Part shown: positions 58,750 through 63,825 of the stretch, piece after piece
Numbering within the stretch: position 1 is the first letter of the stretch
Layout: each line of letters opens with the position of its first letter
Assembly (NCBI RefSeq): GCF_007747445.1
Contig: NZ_CP036425.1
Span: 806,001 to 870,000 of the forward strand
From: Poriferisphaera corsica
GTDB taxonomy: Bacteria; Planctomycetota; Phycisphaerae; Phycisphaerales; Phycisphaeraceae
Direction: 5' to 3'
DNA: 64,000 bases
The notes under the pieces: model-generated
Told to the model about the DNA's origin: nothing
Database searches by the model: none
The model's input: the letters and a program-made list of their open reading frames with translations, nothing else
Made by a program: the position numbers and the translations under genes

Positions 58750-58962
58750 ATGGGCGGGTCCAGTGACCGACAAGGTGAAAAGTCCTTGCTTCACATCCTT
58801 CGTGAAGCAGATGCGCATCGACCAGCTGAAGACGGCAAAAGTCTTGGGCGCGGTCTTGTTCGGCTTGCGCACCTTGCATCGGCGGTTCATCGCTATCAAG
58901 CGGTTGCCGATCTGGAGACTTCAGAAGATTCGTTATTGATGAAGGCTTCAAGCGGAGCTTGA
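58750..58962 (+). CDS. Small protein of unknown function at the head of the flagellar operon
   Basis: 70 residues from ATG 58750, with a purine-rich SD (AGAAAGAAG). Charged N-terminal half (SSDRQGEKSLLHILREADAHRP) and an Ala/Leu-rich helix (LVRLAHLASAVHRYQAVADLE). It lies directly downstream of the sigma-54 promoter and 51 bp before flgF, so it would be cotranscribed. No family recognised. A helical flagellar accessory protein is possible; a non-coding leader is the alternative. Confidence 0.45.
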   Translation: MGGSSDRQGEKSLLHILREADAHRPAEDGKSLGRGLVRLAHLASAVHRYQAVADLETSEDSLLMKASSGA

Positions 58963-59013
58963 ATAGTGTCCAGATTGTCCGTGCGGAGCACGGCTGGCAG
59001 TAAGCGATAGACG

Positions 59014-59855: not shown

Positions 59856-60662
59856 ATGGCAATCTCGGCCTTACATTCAGCAGCATCTGGCCTATCTTCG
59901 CTATCGACGTCGCTTGATGTGATCTCTAACAACTTGGCGAATATGAATACCGTCGGGTTTAAAGCGTCACGCGTTAATTTCGAAGATTTGCTATACGAGC
60001 AAAAAGCTCAGCCGGGTGTTCAGAATGAAGAATCTGGCTTTCGTCCTCACGGGATTCAGGTTGGCCTAGGGACACGGGTAAGTGGTACGAGCATTGAGTT
60101 CACTCAAGGTGACCGCATCGAAGACCCCAACCCATACTCAATGGCTATTAATGGTGAAGGCTTCTTCCGTGTTCAGATCCTTAGCGGACTGTCAGAAGAT
60201 GGCTTTGGCTATACCCGGGCAGGAAATTTTTCTACTAATGCCGACGGCGAACTTGTACTTGGAACCACCAGCGGTCCAAGGTTGGATCCACCAATTAATA
60301 TTCCAGACGGCACCACTACAACACGCATCAGTGAAACCGGTGGGGTCTATGCGGTGAGCGGCGATGGGACTGAGCAACAGATTGGACAAGTTGAGCTATA
60401 CAACTTTGCTAACCCATCGGGTCTAACGCAGATTGGTGGGAATATTTATGTTGAGGGTGTCGCTTCGGGACCCAATATTCCCGGAAATCCAGGTGATATT
60501 TCATTTGGTCGTATTCAGCATAAGTTCCTTGAATCATCCAACGTGACGCCCACGACTGAGTTAGTAACGCTGATTACAACACAACGTGCTTTTGAAATGA
60601 ACAGCCAAACAATCAAGGCTGCTGACGAAACACTCAAGGTGATTAGTAACCTTAAGCAATAA
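59856..60662 (+). CDS. flgG: Flagellar distal rod protein FlgG
   Basis: 268 residues from ATG 59856, which follows CAGGAG; the upstream in-frame start is not family-like. MAISALHSAASGLSSLSTSLDVISNNLANMNTVGFKAS is the classic rod N-terminus, GEGFFRVQ and GYTRAGNFSTNADGELVL the central signature, and ESSNVTPTTELVTLITTQRAFEMNSQTIKAADETL the C-terminal helix of FlgG. It forms the distal rod. Three GGA triplets surround its SD. Confidence 0.93.
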   Translation: MAISALHSAASGLSSLSTSLDVISNNLANMNTVGFKASRVNFEDLLYEQKAQPGVQNEESGFRPHGIQVGLGTRVSGTSIEFTQGDRIEDPNPYSMAINGEGFFRVQILSGLSEDGFGYTRAGNFSTNADGELVLGTTSGPRLDPPINIPDGTTTTRISETGGVYAVSGDGTEQQIGQVELYNFANPSGLTQIGGNIYVEGVASGPNIPGNPGDISFGRIQHKFLESSNVTPTTELVTLITTQRAFEMNSQTIKAADETLKVISNLKQ

Positions 60663-60900
60663 ATAAAAACAGTTAGTGATGCAGGATGACGCTAACTGAA
60701 GCATGAAGCGAATGAGTTCGGCACGGATGCCGAAGAGGATGGATAAAAATCGGCAGCGGAGCTGTCGCCGGAATCCAAGGAAGAGGAGGAGGGGATGAAA
60801 GTCGGGGGATCATGGAGGGGGTATCGTGAGTCGTTGACCCACACTGGCAGGATGCACTGCCGGGGAAAAGGATGTCCCCGGCCGATGAAGGATCAGGATG
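60663..60900 (+). ncRNA. GGA-rich hairpin leader between flgG and flgA; candidate CsrA-binding (CsrB-like) RNA
   Basis: About 235 nt with roughly 15 GGA triplets. CAGGATG occurs three times (60682, 60848, 60894), with ACGGATG, AAGGATG and GAGGATG variants. Hairpins: CAGTTAG/CTAACTG with CAGGATG in the loop (60670-60698); TTCGGC/GCCGAA with hexaloop ACGGAT (60717-60734); CAGC/GCTG with loop GGA (60754-60764); GGCAG/CTGCC (60846-60861); GGGGA/TCCCC with AAAGGATG loop (60862-60879). GGA in a hairpin loop is the CsrA site; CAGGAUG is the repeat of E. coli CsrB. The last box overlaps the flgA start. Function inferred; a free sRNA or a cis leader are both possible. Confidence 0.55.
60703..60798 (+). 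CDS. Possible 31-codon basic leader ORF
   Basis: Starts MKRMSSARMPKRMDK and ends NPRKRRRG; Arg/Lys make up almost half. Its stop codon overlaps the ATG of the next small frame (ATGA). SD is weak. The composition follows from the GGA/AGG-rich RNA, so it may be fortuitous. Confidence 0.2.
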   Translation: MKRMSSARMPKRMDKNRQRSCRRNPRKRRRG

Positions 60901-60908
60901 ATGAATAG
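60795..60908 (+). CDS. Possible 37-codon leader ORF overlapping the flgA start
   Basis: Preceded by a very strong purine-rich SD (GGAGGAGGGG, though close to the ATG). It begins MKVGGSWRGYRES and ends PRPMKDQDDE, with its stop inside the first codons of flgA. Could couple translation of flgA to the leader, or be fortuitous. Confidence 0.3.
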   Translation: MKVGGSWRGYRESLTHTGRMHCRGKGCPRPMKDQDDE

Positions 60909-61980
60909 CAAAACATGGATGTTGTTTGCTACGCTCACAGTACTGTTGACAGTCTGCATGCGAACGGATGCGAATACGATCCGTTTACACGATCAGATCA
61001 CGGTTAATGGGCCAACTGTTGAGTTGCAAGAAATCGCAGAAATTGATGGTGAATACGCCAGCCAATTTGCGGAGTTAACCGTTGGCTCTTTTTCCAATGT
61101 GACGCAGTTAAAGATCAGCATGAAAAATGTGCGTGAGTTGCTGACGAGTGAAAAAGCCAACTGGGGCTTGTTATCACTAGTCGGTTTCCAGCAATCAGTC
61201 GTTTCTTTGATAGAACCTCTTCCTGAGGTGATCGAAACTCAATCAACCGAACCAATCATTAGTAATTCGGTTGCACGCATGACGATTGATCAACCCATTT
61301 CACTAAAATCATTTGTTGTGAAAAAGATTGCAGAGCGTCTGAAACTAGATTCGAATGATCTTAAAATTGAGTTCAAAAGTAGAGATTCCGAGTATCTGTC
61401 GCAAAGTGTGTTAGGCAAAACATACGAAGTTTCTTTTAAAGGTCGAAATACACTTGGCCGCGTAACGCTTGCAATAAGACGTTACGAACTATCCCGGGTT
61501 ATTGAAGAATACTATATCTATCCAAGTATTAGCCGGAAAATTGCAGGTTTAAAAGCTAACCATTCGTTTCGTACGGGTGACATTATTAAGCCTGGATCCG
61601 TCCAAATAATTGATAAATGGATTGATAAACAAGAAGGTGAACCTATCCAAAGTATTGATCTCGCAATCGGCCACGCGGTAAAGCGTCCGATTCGTGAGGG
61701 ATCTTTTATTTATCCAAGAGATATCAAATTACCCGCACTAATTAAACGTAATCAGTTTGTTAGTGTTCGTGCTATTTCTGGCAGGCTTGTTGTCAGAACA
61801 ACTGCCAAAGCGCTAGAGGATGGTGGACTAAATGACATCATTAATGTTAAGCACATCAAAACCAATGAAACGTACAACATTCTCGTAACAGGTCGCGGTC
61901 AAGGCACAGTAATTAAATCTATACCAGCCGTGGAATTGTCAGATCATGTGATGACAACCATTGAGGATACACAGTCATGA
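60898..61980 (+). CDS. flgA: Flagellar basal-body P-ring assembly chaperone FlgA
   Basis: 360 residues; start at 60898 or the adjacent ATG 60901, both served by GAAGGA. Signal peptide ~1-25. The C-terminal ~130 residues have the SAF/FlgA pattern: SFRTGDIIKPGSVQIIDKW, IGHAVKRPIREGSFIYPRDIKLPALIKRNQFVSVRAISGRLVVRTTAKALEDGGLNDII. It helps FlgI assemble around the rod in the periplasm. The N-terminal part is longer and less conserved. It overlaps flgH by 4 nt (ATGA). Confidence 0.88.
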   Translation: MMNSKTWMLFATLTVLLTVCMRTDANTIRLHDQITVNGPTVELQEIAEIDGEYASQFAELTVGSFSNVTQLKISMKNVRELLTSEKANWGLLSLVGFQQSVVSLIEPLPEVIETQSTEPIISNSVARMTIDQPISLKSFVVKKIAERLKLDSNDLKIEFKSRDSEYLSQSVLGKTYEVSFKGRNTLGRVTLAIRRYELSRVIEEYYIYPSISRKIAGLKANHSFRTGDIIKPGSVQIIDKWIDKQEGEPIQSIDLAIGHAVKRPIREGSFIYPRDIKLPALIKRNQFVSVRAISGRLVVRTTAKALEDGGLNDIINVKHIKTNETYNILVTGRGQGTVIKSIPAVELSDHVMTTIEDTQS

Positions 61981-62699
61981 ATAAAATGATCCTTCTTATC
62001 CTACTAAGTGCTTGTGTTTCACTTGATAGAGTCGCAGCCCAGACATCTTCCCTTTATGTCACAGAAGAAGCAGCGTCAAGCATCCGTGTGCCATATCAAC
62101 GTAATGGGTCGAGCCTTGACCGACGTCTTGCAGTGTCAGTTTCACAAGCAAGCTTTACAGCGGTTCGTTTGCCTGAACTTCGTCAATTCGCAAAACATGA
62201 TCTGATTCAGATCATTATTCAAGAATCCACATCAAGTGACTTTAAGTCATCAATGGATACCGGTAAGGAAACGACGATTGAAGGTAATGTGACGAATCTA
62301 CCTAAGTTTCAACTTGCAGACTTACTTGAGCTTCGCATTGATCCCAACGGCGTGACTAATCCGCTGAAAATCGGCGCTGATTATAAGCAAGAGTTTAAGG
62401 GTGACGGGGATATCAAAAAGACAGAAACGATTACGGGCAGGATTCAAGCGCGTGTCATCGATGTTAAACCAAACGGAACCCTCGTACTTGAAGCACGCAA
62501 ATACAATCAGGTAGACGATGAAGTTGTCGAGATCGTCCTGACAGGCACATGTCGTGCTGAAGACGTTTCCTCCATGAACACCATCACCTCAAGTCAGCTT
62601 TATGACTTGCATTTGGTTAAGAAGCACTCCGGAGAACTCCGCAAAGCGACTAAGAAGGGCATTCTTACTCGCATAGCAGAGACTATTTTCAACTTTTAA
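61977..62699 (+). CDS. flgH: Flagellar L-ring protein FlgH
   Basis: 240 residues. The lipobox LSAC (Cys13) suggests an outer-membrane lipoprotein as in other FlgH. Conserved body: FAKHDLIQIIIQESTSS, ADYKQEFKGDGDIKKTETITGRIQARVIDVKPNGTLVLEARK, TGTCRAEDVSSMNTITSSQLYDLHL. It forms the outer-membrane bushing of the rod and so implies a true outer membrane. Coupled to flgA through an ATGA overlap. Confidence 0.9.
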   Translation: MNKMILLILLSACVSLDRVAAQTSSLYVTEEAASSIRVPYQRNGSSLDRRLAVSVSQASFTAVRLPELRQFAKHDLIQIIIQESTSSDFKSSMDTGKETTIEGNVTNLPKFQLADLLELRIDPNGVTNPLKIGADYKQEFKGDGDIKKTETITGRIQARVIDVKPNGTLVLEARKYNQVDDEVVEIVLTGTCRAEDVSSMNTITSSQLYDLHLVKKHSGELRKATKKGILTRIAETIFNF

Positions 62700-62715: not shown

Positions 62716-63825
62716 ATGAAAAAGATTCATCAACAATTCATTTGTTTCGCAGTGTTTAGCCTCTTTATATTGGCGACACTTCAGCAAGTCAGTGCTGTGC
62801 AGATTATGGATATCGCTAGGCCCAAAGGTGCTGAAACCAGTTCCCTAACCGCTTACGGCTTGGTTGTTGGTTTGAATGGAACTGGAGATGGCGGAAAGTT
62901 TGATGCGACTAATCGTGCATTAGCACAAACAATCGCCCATCTAACAGATGAAACAGTGACCGCCTCTGAAATGTCATCGTCAAAGAACGTTGCGCTGGTC
63001 GCAATCTCAGCTGAAATACCTGCCTCCGGTGTTCGAGAAGGTGATCGTATCGAAGTCAAGGTGAGCGCCGTCGGATCAGCAAAAAGTCTCGAAGGTGGCC
63101 GCTTATTCCTCTCGCCAATGATCGGCCCATACCCTAATGCACCAATTTTTGCGATGGCAGAAGGTGCTGTTCAGATTAATGCAAACACGCCAACCAGCGG
63201 AGTGATTTATAGAGGGGCACAGCTGACTCGTGATGTGACTACACGCTTCCTCGATGAGTACGGCAACATTACTCTCGTACTTGATGAGCAGCACGCACAA
63301 CTCAATATTGCTGTGTTGCTCGCTGATCAAATCAATGCAGAACACAATCCAGATGATTTTTCTGGCGACCCAAGAAGAACAAGTCAAATTGCATGGGCTC
63401 AGGATGCAAAAAACGTCAAAGTCAACGTCCCACTCGAATACCGTCAGCATGTCGCACAGTTTTTAGCCAAGATCATGTCGACCTATATCCCCAAAGATTT
63501 TATGCGTGGACAGGCCGTTGTGTATATCAACATGAAAGAAGAAACAATCGCGGTTGATGGTGCTGTTGAGATATCACCGGTTGGTATTTCAAACAGTGGT
63601 TTGGAAATTTCAACGATCACACCAGCCCCAGTCGCCTCACCAATAAATCCAATTGTTGAAAGAAATCGATTCGTTGCAATGAATGCAAAGGAAGATGATA
63701 GCCCACAGCTGAATGATCTCATTGATACCTTTAACCAATTAAAGACGCCGATGAAAGATCGAATCAGCATTATCAAAGCCATGCATAAAAGTGGCAATAT
63801 CCACGCAAAACTCATTATCGAATAA
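62716..63825 (+). CDS. flgI: Flagellar P-ring protein FlgI
   Basis: 369 residues. Signal peptide ~1-28, then VQIMDIARPKGAETSSLTAYGLVVGLNGTGDGGKF, the FlgI start. SSKNVALVAISAEIPASGVREGDRIEVKVSAVGSAKSLEGGRLFLSPM, and the terminal DRISIIKAMHKSGNIHAKLIIE are diagnostic. Periplasmic P ring in the peptidoglycan layer. Starts 16 nt after flgH. It supports the presence of a peptidoglycan layer, together with ftsW and murG. Confidence 0.95.
   Translation: MKKIHQQFICFAVFSLFILATLQQVSAVQIMDIARPKGAETSSLTAYGLVVGLNGTGDGGKFDATNRALAQTIAHLTDETVTASEMSSSKNVALVAISAEIPASGVREGDRIEVKVSAVGSAKSLEGGRLFLSPMIGPYPNAPIFAMAEGAVQINANTPTSGVIYRGAQLTRDVTTRFLDEYGNITLVLDEQHAQLNIAVLLADQINAEHNPDDFSGDPRRTSQIAWAQDAKNVKVNVPLEYRQHVAQFLAKIMSTYIPKDFMRGQAVVYINMKEETIAVDGAVEISPVGISNSGLEISTITPAPVASPINPIVERNRFVAMNAKEDDSPQLNDLIDTFNQLKTPMKDRISIIKAMHKSGNIHAKLIIE

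Follow-up and report, generated by a model that had tools for sequence, protein, structure and literature searches.

The closest described relatives of the element reported here are RNAs that are bound by CsrA through GGA motifs. In the CsrA-FliW partner switch of Bacillus subtilis, csrA lies beside fliW and flagellin, and the flagellin (hag) mRNA carries two sites, with a GGA hairpin over the ribosome-binding site. In Campylobacter jejuni, CsrA targets flaA, flgI, flgH and flgA, FliW acts as antagonist, and the flaA leader titrates CsrA; CsrA co-purifies the flgI, flgH and flgA mRNAs and was shown in vitro to bind the leaders of flgI and flgA, and deletion of fliW results in less FlgI (PMC4894983). 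CsrB/CsrC and RsmY/RsmZ are stand-alone small RNAs (sRNAs) with their own promoter and terminator, controlled by BarA-UvrY and rich in GGA-loop hairpins and CAGGA(U/A/C)G repeats, and the mRNA leader of Salmonella fimAICDHF has been shown to soak up CsrA. Here we describe the intergenic region between flgG and flgA in a 64,000-nucleotide stretch of the Poriferisphaera corsica chromosome (the window). Based on sequence comparison, this region is probably a multi-site CsrA-binding mRNA leader that controls flgA-flgH-flgI under CsrA-FliW.

A gap of 235 nt separates the last nucleotide of flgG (60662) from the first of flgA (60898). A first-pass annotation of this DNA had proposed a CsrB-like RNA with about 15 GGA triplets, three exact CAGGATG boxes and at least three GGA-loop hairpins. 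We counted 16 GGA; the boxes were located at 60682 and 60848 within the gap and at 60894, spanning the flgA start codon; and the three named hairpins (H1, H2 and H7) are joined by H3 and H6, giving at least five with GGA in the loop. The elements are listed below, compared with the single other genome used from the genus, P. heterotrophicis ZRK32 (5,234,020 bp, CP066225):

60663 to 60897, + strand: flgG-flgA intergenic RNA, the proposed CsrA-binding leader of flgA-flgH-flgI, with a 230-nt homologue
60670 to 60698, + strand: H1, a 9-bp hairpin, with loop AUGCAGGAUGA holding a CsrB-type CAGGAUG box
60717 to 60734, + strand: H2, UUCGGCA-CGGA-UGCCGAA, one double compensatory change
60751 to 60767, + strand: H3, CGGCAGC-GGA-GCUGUCG, two double compensatory changes and one G-U/G-C change
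60781 to 60801, + strand: AAGAGGAGGAGGGGATGAAAG, unpaired, with several overlapping AGGA, same letters in both species
60846 to 60861, + strand: H6, GGCA-GGAUGCAC-UGCC, with CAGGAUG inside, loop unchanged between species
60859 to 60882, + strand: H7, GCCGGGGA-AAAGGAUG-UCCCCGGC, two double compensatory changes, loop unchanged
60888 to 60903, + strand: flgA ribosome-binding site, with AAGGA as Shine-Dalgarno (SD) sequence and CAGGATG over the start codon, same in both species

The proposed CsrA-site design, with GGA in hairpin loops, CsrB-type boxes and sites over the SD and start codon, was thus borne out. The overlap with the flgA start held for the third CAGGATG box, which covers the start codon, but not for the GGGGA-AAAGGATG-TCCCC hairpin, which ends 15 nt before it. 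In both species the layout is that of a CsrA-repressed leader, with GGA over the SD and start codon (60888-60900) and H6 and H7 upstream. The GGA triplets of H6, H7 and the SD (60850, 60870 and 60890) are spaced by 20 nt, likewise in the sister species, which is close to the spacing that CsrA dimers use, 18-21 nt (PMC4894983).

Compared with B. subtilis, P. corsica also has csrA beside fliW and flagellin, and a GGA hairpin over the ribosome-binding site is present on fliC; at flgA the corresponding place is taken by unpaired GGAs with hairpins upstream. In contrast to the two sites on hag, at least five hairpins stand here ahead of P/L-ring genes. The presumed parallels to C. jejuni comprise ring-gene mRNAs as CsrA targets, FliW as antagonist and, possibly, a leader that titrates CsrA; there, however, one or a few GGA sites lie near the SD and flgA, flgH and flgI are apart, whereas here a single long leader with multiple hairpins stands before the three genes together. 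In its repeated CAGGA(U/A/C)G motif and its numerous hairpins with GGA loops the element resembles CsrB/CsrC and RsmY/RsmZ, but none of the features that mark those as stand-alone sRNAs was seen. As with fimAICDHF the element is an mRNA leader, but its sites cover the flgA start.

The array exceeds chance. The 16 GGA compare with 11.6 in dinucleotide shuffles (reached by 1.25% of shuffles), four GGA-loop hairpins of at least 5 bp compare with 0.84 (four reached by 0.2%), and three CAGGA(A/C/T)G boxes were obtained in none of 2000 shuffles.

The flgG-flgA gap of P. heterotrophicis (230 nt, 15 GGA) lies at the same position, and the three CAGGA(U/C)G boxes are present in both species. In the aligned stretch between H2 and the flgA start, all 22 pairs in four helices are kept and none is broken; six of the 22 vary, five through double compensatory changes, and slid registers yield none. 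At the position of H1 the sister species pairs differently and forms a hairpin with an AGGAC loop, so that AGGA in a loop is retained in both. Over the 3′ part of the leader and the opening codons of flgA, the two species agree at 90 of 103 positions (87%), compared to 72% for flgG and 58% for the flgA coding region. We consider the compensatory changes apparent from this alignment to be good, though not overwhelming, evidence.

Outside the genus the picture is different. Using FlgG as anchor for related loci, FlgA being too divergent, about 70 non-Poriferisphaera loci were compared. Neither the 28 further genomes examined from the order nor the 44 named Phycisphaerae loci, partly the same genomes, had the hairpin array, and their gaps did not exceed 102 nt. 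A covariance model of the leader (R1) run on 151 order-level and 51 family-level genomes matched only the two Poriferisphaera. Three of its weak matches (E 0.02-0.9) were inspected and discarded, lying inside long open frames and having no GGA-loop hairpins. The leader is therefore a genus-level addition. The first-pass annotation had named the lack of GGA hairpins in related genomes as speaking against its proposal; P. heterotrophicis has them, with compensatory changes, but the short gaps of other Phycisphaerae do not, which tells against the proposal there without refuting it within the genus.

The P. corsica genome (4,291,168 bp, single contig) does encode the protein on which such a proposal depends. 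Two csrA genes were found, and csrA is present in 41 of 41 relatives, most with two copies. The flagellar csrA (89 aa) lies in flgL-fliW-csrA-fliC, 5.4 kb beyond the window, and its product retains L4 and R44; the adjoining FliW was identified by PF02623 (E 7e-34). The second CsrA (65 aa, genome position 732996) has PKNPQG inserted behind the first strands and lacks a C-terminal extension; its gene adjoins one that looks NifU-like, and most relatives have similar weaker second copies. A candidate CsrA-site hairpin, GACAATC-AAGGAG-GATTGTC, lies over the ribosome-binding site of the csrA-adjacent flagellin gene, immediately 5′ of the start codon. It has no Rfam family match in P. corsica and recurs in 18 of the 20 further Phycisphaerae genera examined, in full or one to two pairs shorter, and in one of them with a compensated stem change. 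Phycisphaerae thus widely share a putative CsrA-FliW-flagellin circuit that has an SD hairpin of its own.

Similar hairpins precede further flagellar genes. A further hairpin upstream of the flagellin one reads AUCAGGC-AGGA-GCCUGAU in P. corsica and AAUCGAGU-AGGA-ACUCGAUU in the sister species, with the stem changed and the loop the same, and both species have GAAGGC-AGGAU-GCCUUC in the leader of fliW. The flagellin gene of a second locus (at 2,965,649) has a leader (2964952-2965648) with 20 GGA and six non-overlapping GGA-loop hairpins, more than the flgA leader and mostly common to P. heterotrophicis (851 kb). Two hairpins were found in the flgF leader:

58947 to 58963, + strand: UUCAAGC-GGA-GCUUGAA, an H3-like triloop; AUCAAGC-GGA-GCUUGAU in P. 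heterotrophicis
58979 to 58993, + strand: CCGUGC-GGA-GCACGG; GUCAUGC-GGA-GCGUGAC in P. heterotrophicis, with compensatory changes

Among about 196 sampled P. corsica leaders, the richest in GGA hairpins were those of fliC4 (six), flgA (four), and fliC1 and one other (three each), and five of the six sampled P. heterotrophicis leaders with at least two such hairpins are flagellar (flgA, flgF, fliW, fliC1 and flhB). GGA-dense windows elsewhere are mostly coding.

Taken as a CsrA-binding leader, the gap might work as follows. Dimers of the flagellar CsrA would bind the loop GGAs of H1, H2, H3, H6 and H7 and bridge, at the spacing of about 20 nt, to the GGAs over the flgA SD and start codon. Bridged CsrA would shut out ribosomes and repress FlgA; FlgH would be repressed through translational coupling, and FlgI possibly too. 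FliW would release this brake during flagellin export, and P/L-ring synthesis would in this way be tied to the CsrA-FliW-flagellin loop that governs flagellin.

Several observations weigh against this. The folding energy of the whole region is only mildly below that of shuffles in P. corsica (z −1.66; z −3.30 in P. heterotrophicis). H3 and the flgF hairpins present GGA in a tight triloop and not in the hexaloop favoured by CsrA. With two genomes carrying the leader, the covariation comes from a single species pair, and shuffles of that pair match it in 15 of 500 cases, a weak control with two sequences. Finally, the leader survey covered stretches of about 400 kb per genome, roughly one tenth of each, with crude gene calls, and some of these stretches had been chosen as flagellar or as weak model matches.

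A possible, if tentative, extension is that the flgA leader and one flagellin leader, the one with six hairpins, are both repressed targets and mRNA-borne CsrA sponges, acting alongside FliW and timing P/L-ring assembly against flagellin supply. If this were true, one organism would use both FliW and a CsrB-like RNA antagonist with many sites.

We regard it as unlikely that the gap is chiefly a sponge of the CsrB/RsmZ kind, as a separate or processed RNA or within the mRNA, titrating CsrA from other targets. The 16 GGA, at least five of them in loops, and the CsrB-type boxes would suit such a role, and CsrA-titrating leaders are known from C. jejuni (flaA mRNA) and Salmonella (fimA) (PMC4894983). 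However, the Rfam models gave no CsrB/RsmZ match between 60400 and 61200: the best, RF00166 (PrrB_RsmZ), reached 13.9 bits against a gathering threshold of 44 (E 1.2), and RF00018 gave none. Simple scans of 60300-61000, in which the promoter search covered the sigma-70 type, found neither a promoter of that type nor a + strand terminator. The best conserved part, moreover, is fused to the flgA start, and Csr sRNA use is not known from FliW-bearing species (PMC4682653; PMC7652899); for FliW-bearing bacteria including Planctomycetes, it has been proposed that FliW is used instead of Csr sRNAs (PMC4682653), and joint action of the two is stated as open (PMC7652899). The CsrB-like RNA of the first-pass annotation was thus not upheld. 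Because of the missing Rfam match, the lack of a promoter or terminator in these scans and the continuity of the conserved part with the flgA ribosome-binding site, the gap is most likely not a member of the CsrB/RsmZ family, and a 5′ leader fits better. By analogy with C. jejuni flaA mRNA, a side role in soaking up CsrA is possible.

It is quite improbable that the hairpins form a processing or stability element of the flagellar mRNA between flgG and flgA, with GGA loops that are not CsrA sites. Stable hairpins within an operon are in line with such a function, but the two species differ in stem sequence and agree in the GGA loops and CAGGAUG boxes, and the same loop motif recurs on the fliW, flgF and flagellin leaders beside csrA-fliW. 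There is still less in favour of a peptide, whether small and basic (MDK...RKRRRG) or of the leader type, being encoded in the gap: the open frames involved, of 31 codons in P. corsica and 18 codons in P. heterotrophicis, share one TGA end, but their starts differ, the middle is unconserved, the substitutions have no clear third-position bias and the changes preserve the H3 stem, and the idea was set aside on these grounds. A chance G-rich spacer, to which the 37% G of the gap and similar GGA counts in coding stretches of the window might point, can hardly be reconciled with the shuffles, the compensatory changes and the stronger conservation of the 3′ part relative to the flanking genes.

According to this comparison, a single genus, Poriferisphaera, has gained large leaders with many putative CsrA sites on its ring and flagellin genes, providing a compact and testable case of how CsrA leaders originate and grow within a lineage. 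This case also bears on the coexistence of RNA titration and FliW, which a review names as undetermined (PMC7652899). The first-pass annotation knew of no described example in Planctomycetota, and this agrees with our search: in the open-access literature we found neither a study of CsrA targets in Planctomycetes/Planctomycetota nor a description of flagellar control by CsrA-FliW in the phylum, although this does not prove that none exists.

Two side observations concern individual hairpins. In both species the outer part of H7, on its 5′ side, shares positions with the 3′ arm of H6 (window 60859-60861), and the two hairpins may compete, as a possible switch ahead of the flgA start. In P. heterotrophicis the flhB leader (4311683) has a GAGCA-GGA-TGCTC hairpin with a CAGGATG-like box.

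The two planctomycetes that carry the leader are sponge- and seep-dwelling, and P. corsica KS4 is a motile member of the Phycisphaerae (PMC7783415). The genes flanking the leader are:

59856 to 60662, + strand: flgG, distal rod protein (Pfam Flg_bb_rod and Flg_bbr_C)
60898 to 61980, + strand: flgA, P-ring chaperone (Pfam ChapFlgA, 6.9e-22)
61977 to 62699, + strand: flgH, L-ring (Pfam FlgH), with a 4-nt overlap with the flgA stop
62716 to 63825, + strand: flgI, P-ring (Pfam FlgI, 1.8e-61)

The identity of flgF is likewise backed by Pfam.
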